From positions 1-64,000 of the forward strand of contig JAFYYR010000006.1 of the NCBI GenBank assembly GCA_017557435.1: DNA of 64,000 bases, written 5' to 3'. Source of the stretch: Pseudobutyrivibrio sp. GTDB lineage: Bacteria; Bacillota; Clostridia; Lachnospirales; Lachnospiraceae. This document shows positions 861-38,274 of this stretch, one piece after another. The notes below the pieces were generated by a model, which worked only from the letters and a program-made list of their open reading frames with translations, did not search any database and was not told where the DNA came from. Numbering within the stretch: the first letter of the stretch is position 1; each line of letters begins with the position of its first letter. The position numbers were made by a program, and so were the translations under genes.

Positions 861-892
861 AATGGCCCAAAGGGATTGGTTAGTGCTCCATT
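861..892 (+). repeat. GGGGAC-type palindromic repeat, copy A (degenerate)
   Basis: Reads AATGGCCC, then AAAGGGATTGGTTAGT, then GCTCCATT. It matches the family core (GGTTAGT) and its outer arms (AATGG, CCATT), but arm pairing is imperfect. It lies 21 bases after the stop of the GNAT gene ending at 839 and has the same orientation as the other five copies. Confidence 0.6.
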
Positions 893-925
893 AAATAAAA
901 TTCAGTTTATAGGAATGATAGAATT

Positions 926-1543
926 ATGAATCCATGGGAAGAAATCAGTTTGTCTGATTATGAAAAACATATGAGTCTTGCTTCCGTAAATCAACTTCAA
1001 GCAATGAATAAAATGATGAAGCTTCAGTTTGAGGAATATCCGGTAGCATCGGTTATTGTATTTGGGGTTGCCGGTGGAAATGGTCTGGAGCATGTAAATC
1101 TGAAAAAATACAGCAAAATTTATGGTGTTGACATTAACAAAGCATATTTGGATAAAGTAAAAAAACGATATTCCTTTATGGGGGATAGTCTTGAATGTAT
1201 AAGGATTGATTTGACTTGTGAATATGATAGGTTGCCTGAGGCAGATTTGGTGATAGCAAATTTACTTATAGAATATGTCGGAATTGAGGCGTTCAAAAGG
1301 GCAATTTTGAAAACAGGGGCAAGATATGTATCCTGTATTATTCAGATAAATGTTGATGAGGGGGCTTGGGTTTCTGATTCACCATATCTTCATTCCTTTG
1401 ATGGACTTGATGCTGTACATCACCAGATGGAGGAACAATCTTTGATAAAGGCGATGAATGAAATCGGATACAGTCTGTTAAAAACAGCTGAGACTCCACT
1501 TCCAAACGGAAAGAAACTTGTAATGCTTGATTTTGAGGGATAA
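926..1543 (+). CDS. Class I SAM-dependent methyltransferase-like protein
   Basis: A 205-residue protein with a Rossmann-type SAM-binding start: the FGVAGGNGLEH loop (around residues 47-57), then an acidic strand end (YGVDIN, around 67) and LPEADLVIANLLIEYV in the motif IV region. A small-molecule or protein methylation role is possible, but no substrate motif is evident. It begins MNPWEEISLSDYEKHM, the same opening as a 19-residue remnant at 34632-34691, so this family has been in both accessory islands. It sits between two GNAT genes. I am confident of the fold, not of activity. Confidence 0.7.
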   Translation: MNPWEEISLSDYEKHMSLASVNQLQAMNKMMKLQFEEYPVASVIVFGVAGGNGLEHVNLKKYSKIYGVDINKAYLDKVKKRYSFMGDSLECIRIDLTCEYDRLPEADLVIANLLIEYVGIEAFKRAILKTGARYVSCIIQINVDEGAWVSDSPYLHSFDGLDAVHHQMEEQSLIKAMNEIGYSLLKTAETPLPNGKKLVMLDFEG

Positions 1544-1570
1544 ATTCTAGTTTTCAGGAGAGGACTGAAT

Positions 1571-2071
1571 ATGAGAATACGACCATATATAGAGAGTAAA
1601 GATTTTGATGAAATAACTAAATGGATTACTGAAGAAAGAGCACATGCTTTGTGGTGTGCGAATTTGATTCATTTTCCTATAGAAAAAGACAATTTTGCGA
1701 AAGTCATGCAGGAAGCGGCTGAACGATTTGGGGATAGTCCATATGTTGCTACTTCTGACGATGGTGAATTAATAGGATTCTTTTGCTATTCGGTTAATCT
1801 GGCCAATAACGAAGGAATGCTGAAATTTGTTATGAACAACCCTCGATTTAGGGGCAAGGGGTACGGCAAGGAAATGCTTCGACTGGCAGTAAAGTATGCA
1901 TTTGAAATTACCAATGCACAAGCAGTTCAATTGAATGTATTCCCTGAGAACGAAATAGCAAAAAAGTGTTATAAAGCTGTTGGTTTTACAGAAAGAAAGA
2001 CGGATTTGAATGCATTTGCTTATAAGGATGAATCTTGGGGCAGATGTAATATGGTTATTAGACGAAGCTAA
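1571..2071 (+). CDS. GNAT family N-acetyltransferase
   Basis: A 166-residue GNAT enzyme with the acetyl-CoA binding motif NNPRFRGKGYGKEML at about residues 96-110 and a VFPENEIAKKCYKAVGF segment typical of the C-terminal half. The start ATG 1571 follows CAGGAGAGGACTGAAT. It is 27 bases after the methyltransferase gene and is probably co-transcribed with it. Its stop codon TAA (2069-2071) overlaps the first bases of a palindromic repeat (copy B). The substrate is unknown. Confidence 0.8.
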   Translation: MRIRPYIESKDFDEITKWITEERAHALWCANLIHFPIEKDNFAKVMQEAAERFGDSPYVATSDDGELIGFFCYSVNLANNEGMLKFVMNNPRFRGKGYGKEMLRLAVKYAFEITNAQAVQLNVFPENEIAKKCYKAVGFTERKTDLNAFAYKDESWGRCNMVIRRS

Positions 2072-2103
2072 TGGTCCCAGGGGACGGGGTTAGTGGTTCA
2101 TTT
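2070..2103 (+). repeat. GGGGAC-type palindromic repeat, copy B
   Basis: Reads AATGGTCC, then CAGGGGACGGGGTTAGT, then GGTTCATT. The core is identical to copies C, D and F from GGGGAC to TTAGT. It begins within the stop codon of the upstream GNAT gene and ends 14 bases before the next GNAT start. Confidence 0.8.
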
Positions 2104-2117
2104 GTGAGGATAATAAT

Positions 2118-2642
2118 ATGATAGAAACAACGCGTCTTTTGCTGAGAAACTATACAATGGATGATTTTGATGCCCTTTATGAGATTATGTCAGATTCAGA
2201 AACTATGAAACATTATCCTGCACCATTCGATGCGGATAGGACAAAGGGATGGATTACATGGAATTTGGAAAATTATAAGAAGTATGGATTTGGATTGTGG
2301 GCAGTTGTGCTAAAGGAAACAGGTGAGTTCATCGGTGACTGTGGCATTACTATACAAAATATTGATGGAGAAATGCTCCCGGAGATTGGGTATCACATTC
2401 ATAAAAAATATTGGAAACGTGGATTTGCAAAAGAAGCTGCACAAGCTGTACGAAACTGGGTTTTTCAGAATACACAGTATGATACAATCTATTCATACAT
2501 GAAGTATACAAACGTAGCTTCATATTCTACGGCCGTAGCCAATGGTATGAAGAAGGTAAAAGAATATCCGGATCCTAAAAATACTATTTCTTATGCCTAC
2601 GCCATTACTCGTTCAGAATGGGAAGCAATGCAATGTAAATGA
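2118..2642 (+). CDS. RimJ/RimL-type GNAT acetyltransferase
   Basis: A 174-residue protein opening with IETTRLLLRNYTMDDFDALYEIM, the classic start of the RimJ/RimL (Acetyltransf_3) branch. Other marks are ETGEFIGDCGI, PEIGYHIHKKYWKRGFAKEAA (acetyl-CoA loop, around residues 93-113) and a C-terminal YPDPKNT segment. This branch acetylates protein N-termini or amino groups of small molecules; nothing here decides which. The ribosome binding site GAGGA precedes ATG 2118. It starts just after repeat copy B and is followed 18 bases later by a DUF4298 gene. Confidence 0.8.
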   Translation: MIETTRLLLRNYTMDDFDALYEIMSDSETMKHYPAPFDADRTKGWITWNLENYKKYGFGLWAVVLKETGEFIGDCGITIQNIDGEMLPEIGYHIHKKYWKRGFAKEAAQAVRNWVFQNTQYDTIYSYMKYTNVASYSTAVANGMKKVKEYPDPKNTISYAYAITRSEWEAMQCK

Positions 2643-2660
2643 GTTAGAGGGGACGATATT

Positions 2661-2948
2661 ATGACTAGCATAGAACGCATTACTAAAATGGAAGCTATTT
2701 TGGATCAGGCCACAACTACAATGGATGAGTTGCAGCAGAAGATAGACGATTTCTATAAAATGCAAAATGACATTAGCCTGTTAGAAGAATATTATTTAAG
2801 CGAGGATTGGAAGAAAGACTTTGCCCTAGATGAAAAAGGAAAACTTCCTAAGGAGTTGAAGCGTGGCGTTTTATCGGAAGATGCTATCTATGATTTACTT
2901 GAGCAAAACAAGGAGCTTATGGCGATAATTTCTAATTACAATAATTAG
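2661..2948 (+). CDS. DUF4298 domain protein
   Basis: A 95-residue soluble protein matching the DUF4298 pattern: an N-terminal helix (MTSIERITKMEAILDQA), LEEYYLSEDWKKDFALDEKG in the middle, KLPKELKRGVLSEDAIYDLL, and a helical end. DUF4298 proteins are small, mostly helical and of unknown function, and often occur near acetyltransferases and other accessory genes in Firmicutes. It follows the RimJ-like gene by 18 bases and has GAGGGGA upstream, so it is probably co-transcribed. Confidence 0.75.
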   Translation: MTSIERITKMEAILDQATTTMDELQQKIDDFYKMQNDISLLEEYYLSEDWKKDFALDEKGKLPKELKRGVLSEDAIYDLLEQNKELMAIISNYNN

Positions 2949-3027
2949 TTTAGGCATTTTTATAAACTGGTTAAGTAAGACTGGAGAATGACAGATTATT
3001 TTTGCGAAAAAGGATGGAGAATATTTT

Positions 3028-3555
3028 ATGAAGCTTATAGTTGTAGACATACAAAAGGGAATAACCGACGAAAGATTATATGATTTTAATAACTTTATAA
3101 AGAACGTGACAAATATCATCGATACAGCAAGAAATAATAATGTCGAGGTTATTTATGTGCAGCATGATGATGGCCCGGGGACAGGCTTTTCTATAGGGGA
3201 TAAGGATTTTGAAATCGCAGATCAGGTAGCACCAAAAGAGAATGAGAAAATATTCATAAAGACCATAAACAGCTGCTTTGGCAATTCTGATTTTACAGAT
3301 TATCTTAAGCATTCAGGAGAAAAAGATTTGATGATAGTTGGATTGCAGACAAATTTCTGCATTGATGCAACTGTTAAGTCTGCTTTTGAAAGAGGCTACA
3401 ATGTGATAGTTCCTAAGGAAACAAATTCTACTTTTGATAACGATTACATGGATGGCGAGACCACTTATAGATATTACAACGAGATGATGTGGCCAAAGAG
3501 ATTTGCAAGCTGCATTTCTGTTGATGAAGCAATAAAGATTATGGAGGAGAAATAA
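3028..3555 (+). CDS. Isochorismatase-like cysteine hydrolase
   Basis: A 175-residue member of the isochorismatase/nicotinamidase superfamily. The catalytic triad is visible as Asp7 (LIVVDIQKG), Lys78 (IFIKTINSCF) and Cys111 (GLQTNFCIDATV), with the usual cis-peptide region before the Cys. Members hydrolyse amides or vinyl ethers of small molecules such as nicotinamide, ureidoacrylate or N-carbamoyl compounds; the substrate cannot be read here. The metal-binding DxH of true nicotinamidases is not evident. ATG 3028 follows AAAAAGGATGGAGAATATTT. Confidence 0.8.
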   Translation: MKLIVVDIQKGITDERLYDFNNFIKNVTNIIDTARNNNVEVIYVQHDDGPGTGFSIGDKDFEIADQVAPKENEKIFIKTINSCFGNSDFTDYLKHSGEKDLMIVGLQTNFCIDATVKSAFERGYNVIVPKETNSTFDNDYMDGETTYRYYNEMMWPKRFASCISVDEAIKIMEEK

Positions 3556-3632
3556 CTGAAATATCCTGCTGATTTGCCTTAATATTTATTAGAAGCTATA
3601 ATAAGAAAAGTTTTGATTAGAAGGAGTTTAAA

Positions 3633-4076
3633 ATGAGTACAGAAATTACAGGCAAGAATGTTGGCAAGACATGCCGCACACATTATAGAGGTACATTTAA
3701 CGATGGAACACAATTTGATTCATCTTACGACAGAGGTGAGCCACTTGAGTTCGTTTGCGGAGCCGGCATGATGATTAAGGGATTTGACAAAGCTGTTGCA
3801 AATATGGAAGTTGGCGATAAGGTAGATATTCATCTTATGCCTGAGGAAGCATACGGCCAGCCTGATGAGGATGCTATTTTTACAGTAGAGATAGCACAGC
3901 TTCCAGGTTCGGAGGAGCTGGTGGTAGGTCAGCAGGTATATTTGCAGGATCCATATGGCAGACCATTTCCAGTAAAGGTTGTTGCCAAGGATGAAAATAA
4001 TATAACTCTTGATGCAAACCATGAGATGGCTGGTAAAGAGCTCAATTTTACAATTGAGCTTGTAGAGGTATTGTAA
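3633..4076 (+). CDS. FKBP-type peptidyl-prolyl isomerase, SlyD-like
   Basis: A 147-residue cytoplasmic prolyl isomerase/chaperone. The FKBP core shows DGTQFDSSYDRGEPLEF, GAGMMIKGFDKAV and MEVGDKVDIHLMPEEAYG, which leads into the insert-in-flap region (to about residue 120) seen in SlyD-type proteins. The His/Cys-rich metal-binding tail of E. coli SlyD is absent; the protein ends ELNFTIELVEVL. GAAGGAG precedes ATG 3633, and AGCTATAAT around 3595-3603 could be its -10 region. A hairpin terminator follows at 4082-4116, so it is likely monocistronic. Confidence 0.88.
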   Translation: MSTEITGKNVGKTCRTHYRGTFNDGTQFDSSYDRGEPLEFVCGAGMMIKGFDKAVANMEVGDKVDIHLMPEEAYGQPDEDAIFTVEIAQLPGSEELVVGQQVYLQDPYGRPFPVKVVAKDENNITLDANHEMAGKELNFTIELVEVL

Positions 4077-4081
4077 TTTTT

Positions 4082-4116
4082 AAAAACCTGATCCTAGGAT
4101 TGGGTTTTTATTTTTA
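4082..4116 (+). terminator. Rho-independent terminator after the FKBP gene
   Basis: AAACC, TGATCC, TAGGATT, GGGTTTTT and TATTTTT form a short hairpin with a T-rich tail directly after the FKBP stop codon and before the ABM gene. Confidence 0.75.
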
Positions 4117-4126
4117 AGGAGAGGCT

Positions 4127-4447
4127 ATGATAACAGTAAATTTATATTATAAGGGGACAAACGGAAGTGCCCGTGCATTTGCAGAAGAAATGGAATCGTC
4201 AGGTATTGCAGACTCTATTAGAGCAGAGCAAGGAAATCTTCGCTACGAATATTTTCAACCTATCAATGACCCGGAAACAGTTTTGCTCATTGATTCATGG
4301 GCTGACCAGGCTGCAATAGATGCACATCATGCATCGCCTATGATGAAACAGCTTGCTGAATTAAGAGAAAAATATGACCTTCACATGACGGTAGAGCGTT
4401 TTGTGAGTGACGAATATGAAGCTGATAAAAAGTTTATTAGAAACTAG
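4127..4447 (+). CDS. Antibiotic biosynthesis monooxygenase (ABM) family protein
   Basis: A 106-residue dimeric ferredoxin-like-fold protein of the ABM/YgiN type. It has ITVNLYYKGTNGSARAFAEEM, then EQGNLRYEYFQPINDPETVLLIDSWADQAAIDAHHASPMM, the characteristic central strand and WxDQxALDxHHxSP block. YgiN-like members are quinol monooxygenases; others degrade haem or have no known activity. No haem ligand set is visible. AAGGAGAGGCT precedes ATG 4127. It stands alone between a terminator and a 70-base gap. Confidence 0.8.
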   Translation: MITVNLYYKGTNGSARAFAEEMESSGIADSIRAEQGNLRYEYFQPINDPETVLLIDSWADQAAIDAHHASPMMKQLAELREKYDLHMTVERFVSDEYEADKKFIRN

Positions 4448-4520
4448 AGCTTTACAATCTAAATAGATATTTAATAGGCCCAATATTTACAGAGAGAATA
4501 ATGAAAATGTAGGTGAAAAA

Positions 4521-5249
4521 ATGATAGGACTAGGAACTTTAATTAACACTGTAGCTATTATTGTTGGAGGATTAATTGGCAATTTTACTGGTAAATTGTT
4601 TAAAGAAGATCAGCAGCATGCAATAACTAAGGCATGCGGAATCAGCGTTTTGTTTATTGCTATAGCTGGTGCTATGCAGGGAATGATGGCTATTGATGGT
4701 AAAAATCTTGTCAGTGGAAAATCAATGCTTGTTGTCCTTTGTATTGTATTAGGAACTATAGTTGGAGAATTAATTGGAATAGAAAATGGCTTTGAAAGCT
4801 TCGGAGAGTGGCTTAAGCAAAAAACGGGTAATAGCGGTGACAAAGAATTCGTAAATGCGTTTGTTACAGCTTCCCTTACAGTTTGCATCGGGGCTATGGC
4901 CATTGTGGGCGCTATTCAAGATGGAATTATGGGTGACTATTCTACACTGGCTGTTAAGTCGGTTTTAGATTTCATCGTAGTAGCTGTTATGACCTCCTCA
5001 CTAGGAAAGGGCAGTGCCTTTTCAGCTATCCCTATTTTCCTGTTTGAGGGCTCAGTTACATTGCTGGCCAAGTTGATTTCACCAATTATGACGGAAATGG
5101 CAATAGCATATTTATCACTTATTGGCTCTATACTTATTTTTTGCGTTGGTGTAAATCTCGTATGGGGAAAAACAGTGCGAGTTGCAAACATGCTTCCTGG
5201 ATTGATATTTGCTGTTGTAGCTGTATATATTCCAGGCGGAATATTTTAA
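4521..5249 (+). CDS. DUF554 family membrane protein (YdfK-like)
   Basis: A 242-residue polytopic membrane protein starting MIGLGTLINTVAIIVGGLIGNFTGKLF, the hallmark opening of DUF554. Internal blocks GISVLFIAIAGAMQGMM, NAFVTASLTVCIGAMAIVGAIQDG and SLIGSILIFCVGVNLVWGK are conserved in the family and form six or so membrane helices. The function is unknown. AGGTGAAAAA precedes ATG 4521, and a perfect-stem terminator follows directly (5258-5293), so the gene appears to be a single transcription unit. Confidence 0.88.
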   Translation: MIGLGTLINTVAIIVGGLIGNFTGKLFKEDQQHAITKACGISVLFIAIAGAMQGMMAIDGKNLVSGKSMLVVLCIVLGTIVGELIGIENGFESFGEWLKQKTGNSGDKEFVNAFVTASLTVCIGAMAIVGAIQDGIMGDYSTLAVKSVLDFIVVAVMTSSLGKGSAFSAIPIFLFEGSVTLLAKLISPIMTEMAIAYLSLIGSILIFCVGVNLVWGKTVRVANMLPGLIFAVVAVYIPGGIF

Positions 5250-5257
5250 AGACTATG

Positions 5258-5293
5258 ATCAAGATAGAGCTTAGCTCTATCTTGATTTTCTTT
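5258..5293 (+). terminator. Terminator after the DUF554 gene
   Basis: ATCAAGATAGAGC, TTA and GCTCTATCTTGAT make a perfect 13-bp stem followed by TTTCTTT. Confidence 0.88.
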
Positions 5294-5322
5294 ACGGATA
5301 ATTTATTCTCGAAAAAAGGTGC

Positions 5323-5352
5323 TATAATCTAACTGTTTAAACAAATGAACAG
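5323..5352 (+). promoter_or_regulatory. Promoter -10 and candidate ArsR operator
   Basis: TATAAT at 5323-5328 is followed by the inverted repeat CTGTTTAAACAAATGAACAG at 5333-5352, which contains the palindrome TGTTTAAACA. It lies about 25 bases before the ArsR start, where an autorepressor would sit. ArsR proteins bind such short dyads around their own promoters; binding here is inferred. Confidence 0.5.
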
Positions 5353-5377
5353 ATTAACGAAAGTTATGAGGTAGTCC

Positions 5378-5710
5378 ATGGATTGTGAAAAAGAATCAAG
5401 GAAATTACAGTTAGAATTTAAAGAGTGTCAAAAGCTTCTTACGGCGATTGGAGACGAAACTAGACAATACATTATGTCTGTAATGATAATGGAAAAATGC
5501 GGTGGTGCCAGAGTAATTGACATAGCTAAAAAGACTCATTTATCTAGGCCGGCAGTATCACATCACATGCAGATATTAAAAGACGCTGGTTTTGTCACAG
5601 CAAGAAAAGAGGGGACAATGATTTATTATTCCGTAAATGCGGATAGAACTGGAATTGAAAAAATCAAAACCCTCGTAAATCATATTGATGAATTACTTGC
5701 CCAGGATTGA
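5378..5710 (+). CDS. ArsR/SmtB family transcriptional regulator
   Basis: A 110-residue winged-helix regulator with ARVIDIAKKTHLSRPAVSHHMQILKDAGFVTARKEGTMIYYSV, the ArsR recognition helix (residues about 55-75) and wing. No clear metal-binding CxC is present in the recognition helix; the Cys residues (CEKES, ECQKLL, EKCGG) are scattered, so a redox or non-metal signal is as likely as a metal. It sits 31 bases upstream of an aldo/keto reductase and probably controls that gene and itself through the dyad at 5333-5352. Confidence 0.85.
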   Translation: MDCEKESRKLQLEFKECQKLLTAIGDETRQYIMSVMIMEKCGGARVIDIAKKTHLSRPAVSHHMQILKDAGFVTARKEGTMIYYSVNADRTGIEKIKTLVNHIDELLAQD

Positions 5711-5741
5711 TGCTCTTTTTTCGGAATAGGAGCGATACAAA

Positions 5742-6599
5742 ATGGAATATGTAACATTATCCAACGGGGTAAAGATGCCGTCACTAGGCTATGGAGTATA
5801 TAAGATTGCACCTGAAAAATGCGAGGAATGCGTGCTTGACGCAATAAAAGTTGGATATCGACTTATAGATACAGCGCAGTATTATGATAATGAAGAAGCA
5901 GTGGGAAATGCCATAAGAAAAAGTGGGATTCCTCGTGAGGATTTTTTTATAGTTACCAAAGTGTGGCTTACAAATGACGGTTATCACAAGGCGAAGGATT
6001 CAATAGAAGAGTCTCTTTCAAAATTAAATATGTCTTATGTGGATTTGCTGCTTATTCATAAGCCTGTAGGTGATTACTTCGGAACCTATCGTGCCCTTGA
6101 GGAGGCGTACAAAGAAGGGAAAGCAAAAGCCATTGGAGTTTCTAGCTTTAACGAAAAGTTACTTAAGAAGTTATATGATTTTGCAGAAATCAAGCCAATG
6201 GTAAATCAGGTTGAGACACATGTATTTTTTCAGCAGAAAAAATTACATAGACTTATGGATGAATTAGAAATTAAGCATATGGCATGGGCACCTTTTGCAG
6301 AGGGGGCGCGAGGATTTTTTTCTAATCCGGTTTTGGATGAGATTGGGAAAAAATACAATAAGAGCATTGCCCAGGTGGCTCTTCGCTTTATGATTCAATC
6401 GGATATAATCCCGATTCCTAAATCAACCCACATTAACCGTATGGCGCAAAACCTTGAAATATTTGATTTTTCCCTTGAAGAGGAAGATATAAAAACTATT
6501 GCCTCTTTGGATACAGGCAAAAGTATATTTGGACCAGAATATGGTCCTCTCACTGGAAAAATATTGTATTTTCTATCCAAGTTGTTTTATCACGGATAA
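5742..6599 (+). CDS. Aldo/keto reductase
   Basis: A 285-residue NAD(P)H-dependent oxidoreductase of the AKR5-like group. It begins EYVTLSNGVKMPSLGYGVYKI. The catalytic set is visible: Asp and Tyr in RLIDTAQYYDNE, Lys in FIVTKVW and His in LLLIHKP. The NADPH-binding end is IPIPKSTHINRMAQNLEIFDFSL. Such enzymes reduce aldehydes and ketones, for example methylglyoxal. Its likely co-transcription with the ArsR gene suggests induction by a reactive compound; that is inference. Directly downstream is a broken cupin gene that may once have been its operon partner. Confidence 0.9.
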   Translation: MEYVTLSNGVKMPSLGYGVYKIAPEKCEECVLDAIKVGYRLIDTAQYYDNEEAVGNAIRKSGIPREDFFIVTKVWLTNDGYHKAKDSIEESLSKLNMSYVDLLLIHKPVGDYFGTYRALEEAYKEGKAKAIGVSSFNEKLLKKLYDFAEIKPMVNQVETHVFFQQKKLHRLMDELEIKHMAWAPFAEGARGFFSNPVLDEIGKKYNKSIAQVALRFMIQSDIIPIPKSTHINRMAQNLEIFDFSLEEEDIKTIASLDTGKSIFGPEYGPLTGKILYFLSKLFYHG

Positions 6600-6624
6600 A
6601 GGATTATATTTACAATATAAATAA

Positions 6625-8566: not shown

Positions 8567-9166
8567 ATGGATTTATCCAATCAAGAAGGAATTATTTGTA
8601 AAGCCATAGAATATGTCAAAACATTATTCAGTGGCAATTCAGATGGGCATGATGCCAATCATACACTTAGAGTTTATAAGAATGTACAGTTATTATTAGA
8701 ATCATATCCTGAAGCAGACTCTTTTATTTCATCATTATCAGCATTATTACATGATGTGGATGATCATAAACTTTTTAAAACTCAGAACAATGATAATGCT
8801 AGAAATTTCTTGCAAGAGAATGGATTGTCGGAGGAATTAATAGAGAATATTTGCGAGATAATAAATTCTGTATCTTTCAGCAAGAATAAAGGAAAAACTC
8901 CAAGAACTATTGAAGGTCAAATTGTACAGGATGCAGACAGACTTGATGCTATTGGTGCTATTGGTATTGCAAGAACTTTTGCTTATGGAGGAAGAGCCGG
9001 CAGATCTCTTGAGGATTCGATACAGCATTTTTATGATAAGTTGCTTCTGTTAAAAGATGAGATGAATACGGAGGCTGCATTAAAAATCGCCATGGAGCGA
9101 CACGAATACATGGAAAATTTTTTAAAAGAGTATTTTGAAGAAAGTATCATAGATGCAGAAAACTAA
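8567..9166 (+). CDS. HD domain phosphohydrolase (YedJ-like)
   Basis: A 199-residue HD-superfamily metal-dependent phosphohydrolase. The metal ligands are visible: His in DANHTLRVYKN (around residue 32), His-Asp in SALLHDVDDHK (around 65) and the distal Asp in GQIVQDADRLDAIGAIGIARTF (around 128), a block typical of the YedJ/YpgQ group. Such enzymes cleave nucleotides or phosphoesters. TTGGGGAAGA precedes ATG 8567. A 2H phosphoesterase gene follows after 12 bases, pairing two nucleotide-handling hydrolases. Confidence 0.85.
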   Translation: MDLSNQEGIICKAIEYVKTLFSGNSDGHDANHTLRVYKNVQLLLESYPEADSFISSLSALLHDVDDHKLFKTQNNDNARNFLQENGLSEELIENICEIINSVSFSKNKGKTPRTIEGQIVQDADRLDAIGAIGIARTFAYGGRAGRSLEDSIQHFYDKLLLLKDEMNTEAALKIAMERHEYMENFLKEYFEESIIDAEN

Positions 9167-31908: not shown

Positions 31909-31993
31909 GCGGAAGTGTCGGAACTGGCAGACGAGCAAGACTAAGGATCTTGTGCTCATTGCGAGCGTGCGGGTTCAAGTCCCGCCTTCCGCA
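31909..31993 (+). tRNA. tRNA-Leu (anticodon AAG), second identical copy
   Basis: All 85 bases match the minus-strand gene at 29221-29305, with the same anticodon loop CTAAGGA. The two genes point away from each other, with the MBOAT/SGNH operon between them. Promoter spacing is conserved, but the sequence between promoter and tRNA is different. Confidence 0.93.
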
Positions 31994-32005
31994 TCATATA
32001 AAAGT

Positions 32006-32037
32006 AACCAGAGCGTAAAGCTCTGGTTATTTTTTTA
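32006..32037 (+). terminator. Terminator of the plus-strand tRNA-Leu
   Basis: AACCAGAGC, GTAAA and GCTCTGGTT followed by ATTTTTTTA. Confidence 0.88.
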
Positions 32038-32049
32038 TGTGTCGAAGAG

Positions 32050-32071
32050 TCCACCTCACCCCGCCATCCGC
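32050..32071 (-). repeat. Decayed tRNA-end-like motif, inverted copy of 29012-29033
   Basis: The minus strand here and the plus strand at 29012-29033 share GCGGAWGRCGGGG followed by TGAGGTGGA (20 of 22 bases). The first 12 bases resemble the reverse complement of the 3' end of the neighbouring tRNA-Leu (GCGGAAGGCGGG). Confidence 0.6.
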
Positions 32072-32139: not shown

Positions 32140-32192
32140 AATGGACCAGGGGGACGGGGTTAGTGGTTCATTATACAAAGCGGGATTTGGAG
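32140..32192 (+). repeat. GGGGAC-type palindromic repeat, copy C, with extended leader
   Basis: Reads AATGGACC, AGGGGGACGGGGTTAGT and GGTTCATT (32140-32172). The following AAAGCGGGATTTGGAG (32177-32192) is identical to 334-349, the leader of the first GNAT gene, so the similarity of the two islands extends beyond the hairpin. Confidence 0.75.
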
Positions 32193-32457: not shown

Positions 32458-32511
32458 AAATCGGCATTTATAGAGGTAAATTGTATTTCAGTTTTAATAA
32501 GGACGGGGAAT

Positions 32512-33006
32512 ATGATAAAGTTTTTACATTTGTTCAAGAACTATTACTTGGGAATATCGTTTATAGGTATAGCAGCATTTGTGATACAAGAGATTCCATA
32601 TATCGTTATGCCATTGATAAAATCTGCATCAAATCCAATCATGAATATGTCGAATGAGATCAAATGGATTGGGACAGTACAGGGAATATTTGGTATTTTG
32701 TCTATGATTCTGCTGATGTTGATTGTAAGGGATGATGTTAAACTTATTCCGAAAGAAACAACAAAAGAAAAGATATTCCTTTTTCTTATGATTCTGATGA
32801 TCCTAATCAACTTTATTGGATGGATACTGTACTATATGGGTTACCAGTATGGATGGATGATCATAATCACTCAGTTTGCCGTTGTTCCGTTGTACTATTT
32901 GTTTTTAGGACTTTGGCAGAGAAATTACCTGTTGGCAGGAACGGCGGTTCCATTTTTTGTGATTCATACCATCAACGGGATTATGAATTTTGCCGTTAAG
33001 AGATAA
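32512..33006 (+). CDS. Unrecognised polytopic membrane protein
   Basis: A 164-residue protein with five probable membrane helices (about 12-35, 52-70, 83-107, 113-132, 138-158) and short loops. No conserved catalytic motif is visible. GGACGGGGAAT precedes ATG 32512. The spacer before it (32459-32479) shares an ATCGG...TTTATAGAGGT stretch with the spacer at 34912-34931, another sign of shared leaders within the accessory island. Confidence 0.65.
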   Translation: MIKFLHLFKNYYLGISFIGIAAFVIQEIPYIVMPLIKSASNPIMNMSNEIKWIGTVQGIFGILSMILLMLIVRDDVKLIPKETTKEKIFLFLMILMILINFIGWILYYMGYQYGWMIIITQFAVVPLYYLFLGLWQRNYLLAGTAVPFFVIHTINGIMNFAVKR

Positions 33007-33049
33007 TATCTTTCAGTAAAACGATCTATGAACAATGAGGTTTTAAGTA

Positions 33050-33817
33050 ATGAATAATGGTGAGATAAAGGAAATCGCGTTGAAGCAGTCTGCAGAGGAT
33101 ATAGGCTGCCAGGCGCATGATTTCCTTTCAGATAAGAATATTATTGTGCCATTTTGTTTAGGCAAGAATGCGCGAAAGTATTATAAGGAACCAATCATAT
33201 GTAATTTTGTTTCCTATGGAAGTAATATCGTTGTGGCTACAACAAAAGATGTATCGGATCTGGTAACGGAGTATATAGGCAAGTTTGAGTTTTATCATTG
33301 CTTTGAAACGCCAAATATGCACTGGCTCAATGAAAGACTGTTAGAACGGGGGCATAAGGTATGTTTCATGGCTGAATATTATCTTCCTGATGTAAACAAA
33401 ATTCCTGATGCGGAGTGCTTATATGAAACGCACATACTGGTTCAAGAGGATTTCAAGAATTTGTATCTGCCTGAATGGAGTAATGCACTATGTAAGGATC
33501 GCAGCCATCTGGATATGCTGGGTATTGGAGCATACGATAATGGCAGATTGATTGGGGTTGCAGCCTGTTCAGCAGATTGCGATGAAATGTGGCAGATAGG
33601 CATAGACGTTCTGCCGGAATACAGGCAAAAAGGGATTGCATCAGCACTGACTAGCAAACTGGCAAAAGAGATTCTAAATCGGGGAAAGGTTCCGTTTTAT
33701 TGCTCTGCATGGTCAAACATCAGATCCGCCAGAAATGCGGCAAAAAGCGGCTTTATTCCAGCATGGGTAGAAATGACAGTAAAGCCGGCGGACGTTGTTG
33801 ATGAGATGAATTCATAA
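33050..33817 (+). CDS. GNAT acetyltransferase with N-terminal extension
   Basis: A 255-residue protein. The first about 125 residues are an extension, which may be a decayed second GNAT-like module, and the C-terminal half is a clear GNAT domain with QIGIDVLPEYRQKGIASALTSKLAKEILNRG (around residues 185-215) and SAWSNIRSARNAAKSGF. The length and two-part layout match putative double-GNAT enzymes of Firmicutes. The substrate is unknown. Confidence 0.8.
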   Translation: MNNGEIKEIALKQSAEDIGCQAHDFLSDKNIIVPFCLGKNARKYYKEPIICNFVSYGSNIVVATTKDVSDLVTEYIGKFEFYHCFETPNMHWLNERLLERGHKVCFMAEYYLPDVNKIPDAECLYETHILVQEDFKNLYLPEWSNALCKDRSHLDMLGIGAYDNGRLIGVAACSADCDEMWQIGIDVLPEYRQKGIASALTSKLAKEILNRGKVPFYCSAWSNIRSARNAAKSGFIPAWVEMTVKPADVVDEMNS

Positions 33818-33869
33818 CTTCCAGTTTTATAGACGATGACAAATCGCGGTTTATAAGGGGGATTATTGT

Positions 33870-34586
33870 TTGACTTTTTGGATAATTGCCACGCTATGTG
33901 CTTTTTTTATAAAGGGACTATGTGGTTTTGCAAATACACTAGTCTTTACATCTATTTTAGGATTTGGAGTGGTAAACGTTAATATATCTCCAGTGGAATT
34001 ATTACTTGGATACCCGACAAATCTAATATTGACTTGGAATAATCGTAAAAAACTTGATAAAAAAGTCTATATTCCTTTAGCATTGTTGGTTCTAGGTGGT
34101 AGTATCCCTGGGGCAATACTTTTAAAGAGTGTTGATGTTAAATATTTAAAAGTGTTCTTTGGAATCGTTGTTATTCTTATTGCTGTTGAAATATTTTTTA
34201 GAGAATATCAATGTACAAATGAAAAGGATTCAAATATTATATTGTGCATCATTGGCGTACTATCTGGCATCTTATGTGGATTGTTTGGGATAGGAGCGTT
34301 GCTTGCTGCCTATGTTGGGCGAGTGACTACTACAACGGATGAATTTAAAGCCAATATAAGCGCGGTTTTTATTGTTGAAAATACAGTAAGATTTTTTACA
34401 TATTATTTGCTTGGAGTATTTACGCTTGATTCATTGAAACAAGCAGCAACCCTTATTCCGTTCATGATTATTGGATTGTTTGCTGGAATGGAGAGTTCAA
34501 AAGTCTTGGATGAAAGAATTGTAAAAAAGATTGTTATAGTTCTTTTGGTAATATCAGGTTTACTTTTAGTTGGAATGAATTTGTAG
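33870..34586 (+). CDS. TauE/SafE-family sulfite exporter-like membrane protein
   Basis: A 238-residue membrane protein of the TauE/SafE type: FIKGLCGFANTLVFTSILGFG in the first repeat and GILCGLFGIGALLAAYVGRVTTTTDEFKANIS in the second, the family's duplicated GxxG-rich layout with about eight helices. Members export sulfite, sulfoacetate or related organic anions; the substrate is uncertain. It starts with TTG 33870, eight bases after AAGGGGG; no ATG is nearby. Confidence 0.85.
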   Translation: MTFWIIATLCAFFIKGLCGFANTLVFTSILGFGVVNVNISPVELLLGYPTNLILTWNNRKKLDKKVYIPLALLVLGGSIPGAILLKSVDVKYLKVFFGIVVILIAVEIFFREYQCTNEKDSNIILCIIGVLSGILCGLFGIGALLAAYVGRVTTTTDEFKANISAVFIVENTVRFFTYYLLGVFTLDSLKQAATLIPFMIIGLFAGMESSKVLDERIVKKIVIVLLVISGLLLVGMNL

Positions 34587-34631
34587 TGTTAAAAGATATC
34601 GACAACTTCGGATTAGAAGGGTTAATAAGTA

Positions 34632-34691
34632 ATGAATCCATGGAAAAAACTAGTGATGTTTGATTATGAGTGTTTTTTGGAGGAAGAATAG
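34632..34691 (+). pseudogene. N-terminal remnant of a methyltransferase-like gene
   Basis: ATG 34632 reads MNPWKKLVMFDYECFLEEE and then TAG. Its start aligns with MNPWEEISLSDYEKHMSL of the intact methyltransferase at 926. The rest of the gene is gone, and the PF20097-type gene begins three bases later, using the remnant's TTTGGAGGAAG as ribosome binding site. Confidence 0.6.
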
Positions 34692-34693
34692 TT

Positions 34694-34909
34694 ATGAATT
34701 GTCCTAAGTGCGGAAAAGAAATGAGAACAGGATTTGTCGAGGCAAAGAGTGCAGGAAGTCTTACGCAAGCTTTTACACAGGTTACCTGGTATCCTGAGGA
34801 ATATAAAGGCAAATTTATTAAGAGGGAACCAGTAACACTTTCATTGCAAGCGGAAGGTCAATATTGTGATGAGTGCATGACTGTGTTTGCAAGTTTTAAT
34901 CAGAGATAA
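34694..34909 (+). CDS. Small zinc-ribbon-type protein (PF20097-like)
   Basis: A 71-residue protein with an N-terminal MNCPKCGKEMRTGFV and a C-terminal YCDECMTVFASF, giving a CxxC...CxxC pair likely to bind zinc. The central part (SAGSLTQAFTQVTWYPEEYKGKF) matches the small PF20097 zinc-ribbon family of unknown function. I choose ATG 34694, as the two CxxC pairs frame the domain and GGAGGAAG precedes it. It sits between two gene remnants in the accessory island. Confidence 0.72.
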   Translation: MNCPKCGKEMRTGFVEAKSAGSLTQAFTQVTWYPEEYKGKFIKREPVTLSLQAEGQYCDECMTVFASFNQR

Positions 34910-34936
34910 AGAATCGGATTTTATAGAGGTGATGAC

Positions 34937-34996
34937 ATGATAACGGAGAGACTAGAAATAAACAAAGTAACCCCTAATGGCCCTAGGGGACGGGGT
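34937..34996 (+). pseudogene. N-terminal GNAT remnant cut by a palindromic repeat
   Basis: ATG 34937 reads MITERLEINKVTPNGPRGRG and then TAG. The opening resembles the RimJ-type GNAT start (compare IETTRLLLRN at 2118). From codon 13 on, the reading frame is the palindromic repeat itself (copy D), whose TTAG supplies the stop codon. Confidence 0.55.
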
Positions 34997-35006
34997 TAGT
35001 GGTCCA
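34976..35006 (+). repeat. GGGGAC-type palindromic repeat, copy D
   Basis: Reads AATGGCCC, TAGGGGACGGGGTTAGT and GGTCCAA. The right arm has lost its last bases. It lies between a GNAT remnant and the next intact GNAT gene. Confidence 0.8.
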
Positions 35007-35034
35007 AAAGATAATAAAAAAGGGGGATTTATTT

Positions 35035-35601
35035 ATGGAAAATGTTTATTCGGTTTGTCCGACATTTGAAGATGCTTCATATTTTCTGAGGTTCGTGACA
35101 GAAGAGGATGCAAAAGACTTGCTGGAAGTTTATAGCGATAAGCATGCTTTGCCATTTTTTAACAGCGATAATTGTCACGGTGATAATTTCTATTATCCAA
35201 ATAAAGAGGCAATGGAAAAGGCTATAGATTTCTGGATTTATTCCTATAACGAGAAATTTTTTGTTCGCTGGACGATTATAGACAAGAAGCTTTCTGAAGC
35301 TATTGGTACCATTGAACTGTTTCACAGAGAAGCAGATGATGATTTTAATCATGTGGGTGTTATTCGTCTAGATTTAAGAAGTGACTATGAGGACAAGAAC
35401 ACTATCAAGGAAATACTATCTATAATTATTCCGCCGGCTTTTGAGTTATTTGAATGTGATGAAATAATCTCTAAGGTCCCATTGTATGCTATAGACCGCG
35501 CTCAGGCTTTTTCTGAGTATGGTTTTAAGAAATCAGATAAGTTGATGGTGGGCACAATGGATCATTATGCTTATAAGGATTATTGGACTATTTGTAAATA
35601 A
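35035..35601 (+). CDS. GNAT-fold protein, paralogue 1 flanking the sigma operon
   Basis: A 188-residue GNAT-like protein beginning MENVYSVCPTFEDASYFLRF, with FYYPNKEAMEKAIDFW, RWTIIDKKLSEAIGTIELF and HVGVIRLDLRSDYEDKNTIKEIL. The usual acetyl-CoA loop (R/Q-x-x-G-x-G/A) is not evident where expected; RSDYEDKNTI stands there, so activity may be altered. It is about 85 percent identical by eye to the protein at 37678. ATG 35035 follows AAAAAGGGGGATTT; the frame continues upstream into repeat D but without a plausible start. Confidence 0.78.
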   Translation: MENVYSVCPTFEDASYFLRFVTEEDAKDLLEVYSDKHALPFFNSDNCHGDNFYYPNKEAMEKAIDFWIYSYNEKFFVRWTIIDKKLSEAIGTIELFHREADDDFNHVGVIRLDLRSDYEDKNTIKEILSIIIPPAFELFECDEIISKVPLYAIDRAQAFSEYGFKKSDKLMVGTMDHYAYKDYWTICK

Positions 35602-35620
35602 ACTTGGGAGAAGAAAATCT

Positions 35621-35651
35621 AATGGCTAATAGGGCGGGATTAGTGTCCATT
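35621..35651 (+). repeat. GGGGAC-type palindromic repeat, copy E (divergent)
   Basis: Reads AATGG, CTAAT, AGGGCGGG, ATTAG, TGT and CCATT. Outer AATGG/CCATT and inner CTAAT/ATTAG both pair, although the core has changed. It lies 19 bases after the stop of GNAT paralogue 1. Confidence 0.65.
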
Positions 35652-35702
35652 AAAAGAGGGTAACCAAGTAATTTGGTTACTCTCTTTTGGATATATTATT
35701 TT
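35652..35702 (+). terminator. Hairpin after repeat E, probable terminator
   Basis: AAAAGAG-GGTAACCA and TGGTTAC-TCTCTTTT form a long stem; the T-rich tail is delayed (TATATTATTTTTT). It insulates the sigma operon from upstream transcription. Confidence 0.65.
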
Positions 35703-35789
35703 TTAACCAAAAATTTTTAAAATAGTTGTAACGAATTATAAGAAAAACGGACTAATCTATTAGAACAAAAGAAAGGAGGATACCCTAGG

Positions 35790-36281
35790 TTGAACTTGAA
35801 AAAGATATGCGAAGATTTTTACCCGCTAGTACTGGGGTATCTACTTACTTTGACTAATGGGAACAGGGATTTAGCAGAAGATCTTACACAGGAAACATTT
35901 CTTAGAGCTATCAAAAATAGTAGCAAATTTAAGGGGGAATCGAAGGTTTCTACTTGGCTTTGTCAGATTGCTAAATATACTTTTTGGCAATACCTTGAAA
36001 AGGCTAATAAATTCAAACAGGTCCCTCTTGATGAAATAATGAATATTTCTACAGATGAACTTATTGAGGAAGTCTATATAAGAGAAGAAACCAACAGAAC
36101 TCTATACAAGAATATCGAAAATCTGGATAGCGCTACAAAAGAAGTAATGTTGTTAAGGCTGACTGGTGAATTGTCATTCAAAGAAATTGGAGAGCTGCTA
36201 ACTAAGACTGAAAACTGGGCTAGAGTAACTTTTTATAGAGGAAAGGCAAAATTAGGAAAGGAGATACATGATTATGACTAA
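35790..36281 (+). CDS. ECF-type RNA polymerase sigma factor
   Basis: A 163-residue sigma factor with region 2 (YPLVLGYLLTLTNGNRDLAEDLTQETFLRAIKNSSKFKGESKVSTWLCQIAKYTFWQYL, residues about 9-68) and region 4 (LDSATKEVMLLRLTGELSFKEIGELLTKTENWARVTFYRGKAKL, about 112-155). It starts with TTG 35790 behind GAAAGGAGGATACC. It overlaps the next gene by 14 bases, and the following three genes encode zinc-finger, membrane and exported-type proteins likely to control it. A typical role is a response to an envelope signal. Confidence 0.92.
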   Translation: MNLKKICEDFYPLVLGYLLTLTNGNRDLAEDLTQETFLRAIKNSSKFKGESKVSTWLCQIAKYTFWQYLEKANKFKQVPLDEIMNISTDELIEEVYIREETNRTLYKNIENLDSATKEVMLLRLTGELSFKEIGELLTKTENWARVTFYRGKAKLGKEIHDYD

Positions 36282-36570
36282 ATTTGAATGCGATTTGGTG
36301 GCAGATCTTCTTCCTAGGTATATCGATAAAAAGACATCGGAGGAATCTAATCGATTTATCGAAGAACATATAAGAGACTGTCAGGACTGTAAAGAACTCT
36401 ACGAGGCCATGGTAGCCGATGTTGTTGTTGACGTTGAACAGCCACCAATCAAAAAGCGTTTTAGATTAAATGGAATAATGAAGATGGCATTGATAGTTCT
36501 TGGATATCTTGTGGTAGTACTTATCGCATTATTCCTTTTCTCATACATTTTATTAAACGGGGTGATTTGA
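36268..36570 (+). CDS. Zinc-finger anti-sigma-like membrane protein
   Basis: A 100-residue protein: DLVADLLPRYIDKKTSEESNRFIEEHIRDCQDCKELYEAM (zf-HC2 type, with His and CxxC) and one membrane helix (about 72-95). Such proteins hold ECF sigma factors at the membrane. The start (ATG 36268, or 36274) lies inside the end of the sigma gene with AAGGAG in front, indicating translational coupling. Its stop overlaps the next start (TGATG). Confidence 0.85.
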   Translation: MIMTKFECDLVADLLPRYIDKKTSEESNRFIEEHIRDCQDCKELYEAMVADVVVDVEQPPIKKRFRLNGIMKMALIVLGYLVVVLIALFLFSYILLNGVI

Positions 36571-36890
36571 TGGAAAAAAATAAGATTTCTTGCAAAATCA
36601 TTGAAGATCTGCTTCCGTCATATAAAGATGGAATTTTGACGGATAGTGTTAATGATGCTGTAGAACTCCATTTGAATAATTGTGAATACTGCAGAATAAA
36701 ACTACATGAATTGGAAACTGTGATGGATGATGCTGAGAACAATTCAGCAAAAAGGGATGCTGCATTTATAAGTGGCATACGAAGATATAAGCATTATCTG
36801 ATAGGACTAGTAATAGGAGCAGCAATACCAATAGGATTGTTTTTGATATTTGTACTGTGGGTAGTCGGACTAATGATTATAAACAACTGA
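36570..36890 (+). CDS. Second zinc-finger anti-sigma-like membrane protein
   Basis: A 106-residue paralogue-like neighbour of the previous gene: CKIIEDLLPSYKDGILTDSVNDAVELHLNNCEYCRIKLHELE (zf-HC2) followed by one membrane helix (about 75-100, GLVIGAAIPIGLFLIFVLWVVGLMII). Two zinc-finger partners in one operon suggest either a two-protein anti-sigma complex or a divergent duplicate. ATG 36570 overlaps the preceding stop by one base. Confidence 0.82.
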   Translation: MEKNKISCKIIEDLLPSYKDGILTDSVNDAVELHLNNCEYCRIKLHELETVMDDAENNSAKRDAAFISGIRRYKHYLIGLVIGAAIPIGLFLIFVLWVVGLMIINN

Positions 36891-36903
36891 GGAGATGAGT
36901 GCT

Positions 36904-37590
36904 ATGTTACAGAAAAAAGGGGCGAAAATTACAATTGGAATAGTGGGTGGTTTGTTAATAGGTACAATCACTGTATTGGCAGTGGTGTTTATTTTAGTGA
37001 TGTTATTTTTCTTTGGTGGACCTCCTAAAGTCACTAAAAACATCAATAAATATGAGGAAACTATGTACAAATACACTGCCGAAGCTGGTAGTAAAAATCC
37101 GGTAAGAACAGGATTTTTTATTTTCCCAGAAACTATTCCTGAAAGCGCATTTGAGCAAAAGGAAAAGCCTGAGTTCTATTATTCCTATCAGGATACCTTT
37201 GATGATCCTACCTGCGAAGTATACTTAAAATGCACTTATTCGGATGATGATTATAAAGCTGAATTAGACAGAATTAAGAACGAGTATAAGAATGATAAGA
37301 AGGTTATTTTTGATAATTCCGATAGATTTAATTATCCGACTTATATAGCTATAGATCATCATTCTTTTTCTTATGAATATGCCATGGATGTCGGTGATAA
37401 TAGTATCGTCTATATATATACTGCATTTAAAAATACATTACGAAGCATAAAAAAGATTCCAGAGGAATATCTGCCTGATGATTTTGAAGAAAGTTTAACT
37501 CTAGAAAACGGTTCATATTGGGCAGATGATAACTATGATATCTACCAGATACATAATGGTGGTGAAACAGATTTCACAAGAAATAAATAG
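36904..37590 (+). CDS. Membrane-anchored extracytoplasmic protein of the sigma operon
   Basis: A 228-residue protein with an N-terminal membrane helix (about 8-38, ending in FFGGPPK) and a 190-residue exported-side domain rich in Tyr, Asp and Lys, with no family I recognise. I choose ATG 36904, since ATG 36895 abuts the GAGGAG site. As the last gene of a sigma/anti-sigma operon, it may be a sensor or an effector of the same signal; this is inference. Confidence 0.7.
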   Translation: MLQKKGAKITIGIVGGLLIGTITVLAVVFILVMLFFFGGPPKVTKNINKYEETMYKYTAEAGSKNPVRTGFFIFPETIPESAFEQKEKPEFYYSYQDTFDDPTCEVYLKCTYSDDDYKAELDRIKNEYKNDKKVIFDNSDRFNYPTYIAIDHHSFSYEYAMDVGDNSIVYIYTAFKNTLRSIKKIPEEYLPDDFEESLTLENGSYWADDNYDIYQIHNGGETDFTRNK

Positions 37591-37677
37591 GATAATCTTC
37601 TTGGATAAAAACATTTGTTCTTGTTGGGCTAATGGGATATAATATAGTCTATAAATATAATCAAGGGGGATTATTTT

Positions 37678-38262
37678 ATGGAAAATGTATATGAGGTTTG
37701 TCCGACATTTGAGAATGATAATTATATCCTGAGGTTTGCAGTGAAGGAGGATGCTTTTGACTTACTTCAGGTCTATAGCGATAAGCATGCTTTACCATTC
37801 TTTAACAGTGACAATTGCCACGGGGATAATTTCTATTATCCAACTAAAGAAGCAATGGAAAAGGCTATAGATTTTTGGCTCTATTCCTATGAACAGAAGT
37901 TTTTTGTTCGTTGGGCGATAATTGATAAGAAGCTGTCTAAGGCGATTGGCACCATTGAACTGTTTCACAGAGAGGCAGATGATGATTTTAATCATGTGGG
38001 TGTTATTCGTCTAGATTTAAGAAGTGACTATGAGAATGAGAAGGCTATCAAAGAAATACTATCTATAATTATTCCACCGGCTTTTGATTTATTTGAATGT
38101 AATGAAATAATCTCCAAAGTTCCACTGTATGCCATAGACCGTGCACAGGCTTTTTCTGAGTATGGCTTTGAAAAATCAGATGGGTTGATGGTGGGCACAA
38201 ATGATCACTATGCCTACAAGGATTATTGGACTATTCAAAATGGACCTAGGGGACGGGGTTAG
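37678..38262 (+). CDS. GNAT-fold protein, paralogue 2, with repeat-encoded C-terminus
   Basis: A 194-residue near-copy of the protein at 35035, starting MENVYEVCPTFENDNYILRF and sharing long identical blocks such as HALPFFNSDNCHGDNFYYP and ISKVPLYAIDRAQAFSEYGF. The last residues, NGPRGRG, are encoded by palindromic repeat copy F, which also supplies the TAG stop; paralogue 1 ends DYWTICK instead. The AAGGGGGATTATTTT leader also matches paralogue 1. It lacks a clear acetyl-CoA Gly loop in the same place. Confidence 0.8.
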   Translation: MENVYEVCPTFENDNYILRFAVKEDAFDLLQVYSDKHALPFFNSDNCHGDNFYYPTKEAMEKAIDFWLYSYEQKFFVRWAIIDKKLSKAIGTIELFHREADDDFNHVGVIRLDLRSDYENEKAIKEILSIIIPPAFDLFECNEIISKVPLYAIDRAQAFSEYGFEKSDGLMVGTNDHYAYKDYWTIQNGPRGRG

Positions 38263-38274
38263 TGGTCCATTTTT
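38239..38274 (+). repeat. GGGGAC-type palindromic repeat, copy F (best-paired)
   Basis: Reads AATGGACC, TAGGGGACGGGGTTAGT and GGTCCATT: perfect 8-bp outer arms, an optional inner CTA/TAG pair with a TG bulge, and a G-rich loop. It spans the end of GNAT paralogue 2. Confidence 0.9.

Follow-up and report, generated by a model that had tools for sequence, protein, structure and literature searches.

Transposon-End-Like Repeats Often Mark the Boundaries of Accessory-Gene Differences in Pseudobutyrivibrio

Why do copies of one short repeat, all in the same orientation, close a series of small accessory genes near the start of a bacterial contig? The stretch considered here (the window) comprises 64,000 nucleotides at the beginning of contig C29 (JAFYYR010000006.1) of the Pseudobutyrivibrio sp. 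genome GCA_017557435.1 (G000; 2.84 Mb, 29 contigs). The repeat is 33 bp long, has the consensus AATGGWCC-NN-GGGGACGGGGTTAGT-GGWCCATT, and lies within the window in two accessory islands that carry genes for GNAT acetyltransferases. Many Pseudobutyrivibrio copies form directly oriented series, each copy following a small accessory gene or group of genes, and where species differ in gene content or gene order, the difference often begins or ends at a copy. The explanation that we favor, with a probability of about 0.62, is that these are orphan transposon ends that now serve as portable homology for cassette exchange, probably via general recombination.

Within the window, the core GGGGACGGGGTTAGT has four matches when up to three mismatches are allowed, all of them exact and on the plus strand (2080, 32150, 34986, and 38249; 0.48 expected), and the degenerate pattern AATGG-N-TTAGTG-N-CCATT finds copies A and E in addition to intact copy F (Table 1; 0.01 expected). 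All six same-orientation copies reported by the first-pass annotation are therefore present on the plus strand, four with an intact core and two decayed but real. Coordinates, a Pfam scan, and comparison with a second genome bear out its statement that five of the six lie at the 3′ end of a GNAT gene or a GNAT remnant, and copy C is, as it said, the only one that does not.

Gene content differences often end at repeat copies

We aligned the window to 110 kb of contig C25 from a genome of the same genus that we take to be P. xylanivorans MZ8 (G319), a rumen commensal, with expectations obtained by circular shift. The two sequences are collinear except in the islands and at several other places. 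All four intact window copies lie at the ends of synteny blocks (0.11 expected, p = 0.00085), as do five of the seven copies on the MZ8 side (0.18 expected, p = 0.0003). At copy C (32140), MZ8 additionally carries a 551-bp cassette, made up of a GNAT gene and a repeat, that has a copy at each end, while at copy F (38239) the window carries an extra GNAT gene whose right end is the repeat; this gene is absent in MZ8 between the open reading frame (ORF) at 36895-37590 and the repeat. To the right of copies D (34976) and B (2070) the two genomes match, whereas to the left they differ. Copy D directly follows a 13-codon stub whose likeness to a GNAT N terminus was judged by eye, and a whole GNAT gene (L173:8639-9094) stands before the same repeat in MZ8. 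Copy F lies within the last codons of its GNAT gene, so that the stop codon comes from the repeat, and copy E is decayed in MZ8 as well and is therefore old.

Island 2 lies between two tRNA-Leu genes (31909-31993 and 39646-39731). MZ8 is longer there by ∼3.3 kb (C25:56521-59789); a repeated copy of the tRNA-Leu 3′ region (window 31973-32052) bounds this segment, which looks like an element inserted at a tRNA gene. Repeat-less indels between the two genomes are also found at window positions 39768/39779, 46504-46635, and 53743-53897, among them ∼1.45 kb that only MZ8 has, near the second tRNA-Leu gene.

Cassettes are shuffled between arrays

The arrays on MZ8 contig C11 (nine copies) and on contig C425 of genome G310 (seven copies) hold related cassettes in different orders. 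Numbered 1 to 9 along MZ8, they run 1-3-(9/3)-4-6-9′-2 in G310, with some cassettes common only in part and with no full counterpart for MZ8 cassettes 5, 7, and 8. Cassette 6 is common to both genomes from repeat to repeat (834/834 bp, 97%), and its neighbors differ on both sides. Copies lie at block ends in six of nine cases in the MZ8 array (0.73 expected) and in seven of seven in the G310 array (0.96 expected). The G310 genome is fragmented (460 contigs); assembly error is nevertheless an unlikely source of the arrays, because the MZ8 assembly includes a 1.4-Mb contig, and the repeat spans only 33 bp.

The first copy of the MZ8 C11 array is preceded, at a distance of ∼4 kb, by a reverse transcriptase gene (L171:408-1544; RVT_1, 5.4e-20). 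Elsewhere, at L174:4856-10173, an RHS-repeat protein gene is followed by repeated two-gene cassettes, most of them closed by an antisense copy.

Orientation, placement, and neighboring genes

When orientation is tabulated across the genus, with members of dimers included, successive copies separated by 300 to 4,000 bp have the same orientation in 42 cases and opposite orientations in 5, and in MZ8 all 24 of 24 are co-oriented. The five copies of MZ8 array L174 are all antisense to the genes and yet co-oriented with one another. By automatic ORF calls, 203 singletons comprise 100 between codirectional ORFs, 26 between convergent and 18 between divergent ORFs; a further 34 fall within a called ORF, and the other 25 are at a locus edge. 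The 100 codirectional singletons are mostly nearer the upstream stop codon (75), within 20 nucleotides of it (67), and on the strand of the gene (65). In a set of 209 singletons, the stop codon of the sense gene falls inside the repeat in 42, nine of which use the TAG of GGTTAG.

The neighbors themselves are of mixed families. We scanned 138 proteins, obtained from 161 repeat-adjacent ORFs after removal of redundant sequences and those above 700 amino acids (none from G000), and a random sample of 138 controls taken from 722 further ORFs of the repeat loci. Acetyltransf_1 was matched by 8 versus 3 controls, Acetyltransf_7 by 6 versus at most 1, and Acetyltransf_3 by 4 versus 4. In the largest MZ8 array, the 10 proteins scanned include peptide deformylase, AAA/DUF4143, GNAT, helix-turn-helix (HTH), NUDIX, nucleotidyltransferase, MazG, macro domain, and ApbA matches, and one protein without a match. 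A GNAT-specific cassette is thus not upheld: these counts do not show the link seen at five of the six window copies to be general, and outside G000 the acetyltransferase excess is mild at most.

The repeat flanks a transposase gene in relatives

In Butyrivibrio and other genera, a Y1 transposase gene lies between inverted copies spaced 883 to 894 bp apart. The 115 repeat-fetched loci listed contain at least four of these elements (L049, L079, L095, and L117), and more (L158, L160, and variants) are among loci fetched by Y1. The encoded proteins have ∼260 amino acids, an NHIH or NHVH (HUH) motif, and a conserved Y[IV]HNNPV segment. Against the NCBIfam profile REP_Tyr_transpos (cutoff, 80 bits), L117 passes with 80.8 bits and L049 (76.7), L163 (76.5), and L159 (73.1) narrowly miss, and the nearest solved structure is PDB 4er8 (TnpArep; E = 0.008). 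Y1_Tnp was matched by 8 of 138 repeat-adjacent proteins versus 0 of 138 controls, 3 of the 8 coming from Y1-fetched loci. The idea of the first-pass annotation that these are repetitive extragenic palindromic (REP)-like elements tied to Y1 transposases is therefore sustained in relatives, where the same repeats flank a REP-associated tyrosine transposase (RAYT) in inverted orientation. To judge from sequence, the repeat is the end of a RAYT-type element, or of the related type with terminal inverted repeats (TIR) and its own tyrosine transposase (TIRYT), of gut Lachnospiraceae, together with derivatives of that end.

The genomes that bear arrays gave a different result. Our Y1 search covered 22 of 29 genus genomes, including all 11 with the repeat. 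PF01797 (Y1) had no match at E = 0.001 in the repeat-bearing genomes G000, G319, G316, and G310, and the RAYT profile gave only HTH-end matches with E values of 0.01 or worse in the first three and none in G310, which is only 81% complete. G307 (nine copies) has two Y1 matches, one of IS200 type without repeats (L209) and one partial (L215). In G299 and G318, which have a single copy each, the Y1 genes at L212 and L216 are not accompanied by repeats; L212 scores 80.1 on REP_Tyr_transpos.

Inverted dimers and folding

Two inverted REPs make up a REPIN, and dimers of this kind occur here too: inverted pairs (plus then minus, TTAGT ends facing) within 110 bp form 47 nonredundant dimers, and genus copies within 130 bp of each other are arranged plus-minus in 20 of 23 pairs and minus-minus in 3. 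Dimer partners agree more often than shuffled partners in the outer arm (35/47 versus 20.6), the spacer (27/47 versus 9.5), and the inner arm (35/47 versus 18.1). Singletons lack a conserved hairpin, their arm-center bases being complementary in 93 of 195 (91.3 expected) and, in a looser set, in 102 of 209 (96.0 expected, standard deviation 5.3). Since dimer partners agree but singleton arms show no excess, the folding unit is the dimer. In Butyrivibrio and other genera, dimers that enclose no gene can fold into long, perfect hairpins. The palindrome described for single copies is a weak one: of the five window copies folded (A, B, C, D, and F), two form the outer stem and three fold no better than shuffles. 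We dropped the idea of a G-quadruplex because a single copy carries only two GGGG runs.

These results bear on the proposal that the repeat is a transcription terminator or mRNA 3′ stabilizer carried along by gene duplication. Many copies do closely follow stop codons, and the two dimers that we folded are very stable (−57.9 and −38.5 kcal/mol), but single copies lack a conserved stem, as just described, and this function leaves antisense co-orientation and junctions at copies unexplained; we consider it highly improbable.

Some dimers also have complementary outer flanks (mean over 37 dimers, 3.11 of 8 positions versus 2.37 when shuffled; the top of 500 shuffles reached 3.16). In five dimers (L036:139, L064:4466, L064:7019, L075:945, and L116:5764), 7 to 8 of 8 flanking nucleotides are complementary, and the folded L075 dimer has a perfect 41-bp stem; dimers with complementary flanks look as if they had been placed in the loop of an older hairpin, possibly that of a terminator. 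A search of the fetched loci for empty sites of copies yielded one doubtful case only. Where L177:10960-11080 and L181:6710-8470 correspond, MZ8 carries a further two genes, which end at an opposite-strand copy, and the same place in G000 has only CCTAGGTCC, possibly a repeat remnant.

Distribution across genome, genus, and family

Core matches with up to two mismatches number 16 on each strand of G000 and fall on 14 of its 29 contigs (reversed-pattern control, 1 + 3), some of them beside ordinary genes such as metallophosphoesterase-like and biotin-ligase-like ORFs (identified by eye). The confinement of the repeat to accessory islands that had been proposed is thus true inside the window but not genome-wide, and with 32 such matches, including those beside ordinary genes, the repeat does not serve to mark islands.

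A pattern of 23 fixed bases found at least 115 stretches in species genomes; among the matches listed, 114 are from Lachnospiraceae (Butyrivibrio, Pseudobutyrivibrio, Oribacterium, and others), and many of the isolates bear names suggestive of ruminant guts, one of horse feces. The remaining match listed, a 3.8-kb contig recorded as Aeriscardovia (L040), is probably mis-binned, its flank being 97% identical to that of Pseudobutyrivibrio ACV-2 (L092). A 21-base pattern matched 15 of 299 family genomes with up to one mismatch and 11 of 29 genus genomes with up to two. By this pattern, the repeat that the first-pass annotation described from one stretch is multicopy in G000 (29 copies) and present in relatives, including G319 (50), G316 (36), G310 (8), G307 (9), G299 (1), and G318 (1).

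Proposed exchange at copies and its alternatives

Our preferred reading would link these observations as follows. A transposase would have spread single copies and dimers, after which Pseudobutyrivibrio would have lost the transposase, unless it gained its copies horizontally. Recombination between two copies of one array would delete or duplicate the segment between them, and recombination between an array and incoming DNA would insert or swap a gene-plus-repeat cassette. Of the repeat itself, the left part would tend to remain attached to the gene upstream and the right part to the one downstream. In nine pairs of copies that share only the upstream flank, 9.3 of 10 positions are kept in the left arm and 8.2 in the right; in 20 pairs that share only the downstream flank, 9.4 are kept in the right arm and 8.1 in the left (random pairs, 6.2 and 7.6). 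The likeliest agent would be general (RecA-type) recombination.

The same coincidence could arise if these were ordinary REP insertions behind genes, with island turnover unrelated and with breaks and repeats brought together by a shared intergenic preference, which we regard as possible but unlikely. In other phyla, too, REPs are located no more than ∼20 bp from the 3′ ends of genes (PMC3733652), and many non-array copies have not moved. Breaks also occur at 3′ ends that lack a repeat within these islands and arrays (13/59), but they are commoner at repeats (22/27), a comparison that pools non-independent sides, so that its pooled p of 2e-7 is overstated and the four component comparisons give p values of 0.001 to 0.04 each. 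Ordinary insertion also fails to account for two cassettes with repeats at both ends, and random insertion does not predict the complete co-orientation of MZ8 neighbors, including those of the all-antisense L174 array.

That overstatement is one of several points that weigh against our reading. Some exchange ends have no repeat, namely, the left end of GNAT194 (37596) and the window breaks at 33015 and 33848. A GNAT gene gained by MZ8 (C25:33311-33774, at window 9143-9165), 68% homologous to window 363-826, has no repeat nearby. Six pairs of G000 and MZ8 copies outside arrays retain both flanks, and on G000 contig C24 block ends fall at only one of six copies (two of five on the MZ8 side). The hybrid-arm signal is weak, with 16 of 29 non-independent pairs as expected (p = 0.046, transposase loci dropped). 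Orientation bias is weaker outside the genus: loci L031 to L153, from many genera and with MZ8 included, have 38 co-oriented and 23 opposite neighbors. Copies within 50 bp of a 3′ end (149/274, 54%) exceed random noncoding positions (50%) only slightly, avoidance of 5′ ends (72/274, 26%, versus 52%) being the clearer effect, and the overall link to GNAT genes is at most a mild excess. Recombination itself was not observed, and sequence cannot separate general from site-specific recombination. For copies 0.3 to 4 kb apart in the genus, the outcome that would have refuted the first-pass annotation (random placement and orientation and no indels bounded by copies) is not what we find, though many non-array copies keep both flanks between species.

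Relation to known systems

RAYT/REP systems, TIRYT/TIR repeats, and TIRtrons are described by Di Nocera et al. 2013 (PMC3733652). The repeat shares with REPs and TIRs, as portrayed in that paper, short length and intergenic position, inverted dimers, proximity to gene 3′ ends, and inverted copies around an HUH/Tyr transposase gene; it differs in its Lachnospiraceae hosts, in copies that are abundant without a transposase, and in directly oriented gene arrays. Some TIRs there carry GGGGWSAS, and the present repeat has the G-rich GGGGACGG; GGGGWSAS is exact in 10 of 322 copies and GGGGWSRS is found in 288 of 322, these copies having been chosen by their core. Unlike the GTAG and CGTC REP superfamilies, it lacks a terminal tetranucleotide tag (GTAG near the end in 1 of 322 copies, CGTC in 0 of 322). 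The words Firmicutes, Clostridi-, Lachnospiraceae, and Butyrivibrio have no occurrence in the main text of PMC3733652. The inverted dimers with partner complementarity also resemble REPINs (PMC8049555). Pseudobutyrivibrio differs in having array singletons alongside dimers and in that no RAYT turned up in the four genomes that bear arrays but have no Y1 match.

Integron cassette arrays and clusters of attC sites lacking integrases (CALINs) likewise consist of small, varied genes in series, many of them closed by a short site in one orientation and shuffled in order at those sites. Integron attC sites carry the boxes RYYYAAC and GTTRRRY. The arrays described here differ from both: the integron integrase profile TIGR02249 (cutoff, 265 bits) had no match above the cutoff in the 29 genus genomes (best, 98.9), and the attC box pair was found in 0 of 322 copies, with either box alone in 5 (35 nucleotides read per copy). 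On integrase and attC we therefore reject an integron; attI was not searched for. The suggestion that copies may be points of recombination, arranged like cassettes but with no integrase close by, is supported by cassettes and junctions at copies and by the absence of an integron integrase above the cutoff in 29 genomes.

A site-specific cassette system would also yield integron-like arrays; in it, a tyrosine or Y1 enzyme, either unrecognized or acting in trans, would recombine DNA at the repeat. Such a system fits the co-oriented gene-plus-site series, the cassette shuffling, and the variety of small enzymes (peptide deformylase, NUDIX, MazG, GNAT, and macro domain), and RAYTs do cut and rejoin REP DNA. 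The absence of an integron integrase above the cutoff, of attC-like box pairs, and of Y1 in four repeat-bearing genomes argues against it, as does the tyrosine recombinase complement: MZ8 has one PF00589 match, presumably housekeeping Xer, and the best matches in G000, G307, and G316 are of like size. We consider such a system improbable. A bolder formulation of exchange, which we hold to be unlikely, is an integron-like system without integrase or attC, with domesticated transposon ends as exchange sites common to species and genera. Recombination would be made site-preferring by a host or trans enzyme, with Xer, a visiting RAYT, or a process on single strands at the G-rich core as candidates.

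Short sites, in this case Xer sites, also bound the gene modules known as pdif modules; we take the repeat not to resemble dif. Closer to exchange by general recombination are the minimal mobile elements of Neisseria, in which whole-gene cassettes are exchanged solely by homologous recombination, and the short palindromic dRS3/NIME repeats of the same genus, proposed as sites of integration or deletion (pilC1), both as given in PMC3898611. As described there, the Neisseria element lies between two conserved genes; in Pseudobutyrivibrio, a repeated anchor behind many genes gives serial cassettes.

Features of the window

Several genes of the islands (Table 1) recur in other settings. The methyltransferase-like gene has a 70% identical stretch in a different MZ8 cassette (C25:62245-62762), and the 66% identical MZ8 homologue of the 166-amino-acid GNAT is the repeat-bounded cassette absent at window 32140. 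The head of the small ORF behind copy C recurs with the repeat in Lachnospiraceae locus L119 (94% over 136 bp), behind a different gene.

Table 1. Repeat copies and genes of the two accessory islands in the window
Feature	Position	Strand	Evidence or comparison
GNAT acetyltransferase, 160 aa	357..839	+	Acetyltransf_1, 5.3e-9
Repeat copy A, decayed, begins 22 nt past GNAT stop	861..892	+	Degenerate pattern
Methyltransferase-like protein, 205 aa	926..1543	+	Methyltransf_25, 5.1e-4, under curated cutoff
GNAT, 166 aa, stop overlapped by copy B	1571..2071	+	Pfam scan, MZ8 comparison
Repeat copy B, intact	2070..2103	+	Core match; MZ8 synteny begins here (right conserved, left different)
GNAT, 174 aa	2118..2642	+	Acetyltransf_3, 3.9e-33
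Repeat copy C, intact	32140..32172	+	Aligns with two MZ8 copies 551 bp apart enclosing extra GNAT gene
Small accessory ORF, 84 aa	32203..32457	+	No Pfam match
GNAT, 255 aa	33050..33817	+	MZ8 without counterpart at this place
13-codon stub fused to copy D	34937..34975	+	Full GNAT here in MZ8
Repeat copy D, intact	34976..35006	+	Core match; MZ8 synteny resumes at left edge
GNAT ORF, likely start ATG near 35035	34999..35601	+	Acetyltransf_3, 3.7e-8
Repeat copy E, decayed, begins 20 nt past GNAT 34999-35601	35621..35651	+	Degenerate pattern
GNAT, 194 aa (GNAT194)	37678..38262	+	Paralogue of GNAT 34999-35601; 85% identical to latter's MZ8 counterpart
Repeat copy F, intact, supplies stop of GNAT194	38239..38274	+	Core match; MZ8 synteny resumes at left edge
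Uridine-kinase-like (PRK) gene	38303..39052	+	DNA match in 24/29 genus genomes

Implications

The RAYT/TIRYT kind of element and the placement at 3′ ends are known; co-oriented arrays without an integrase or transposase, with joints often at exchanges, are new. A literature search with partly covered hit lists and few subscription journals listed no work that describes this repeat or, for Lachnospiraceae, cassette arrays bounded by REPs, which does not establish absence. Integrons are rare in Firmicutes, and co-oriented REPs 0.3 to 4 kb apart offer a searchable signature for hidden cassette arrays in that phylum. They also provide a testable case of REPs shaping gene content, beyond lying between genes. 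If our reading is right, the ends of a selfish element would have become joints of accessory-gene exchange in a common gut genus, and cassettes would have evolved there without an integrase.

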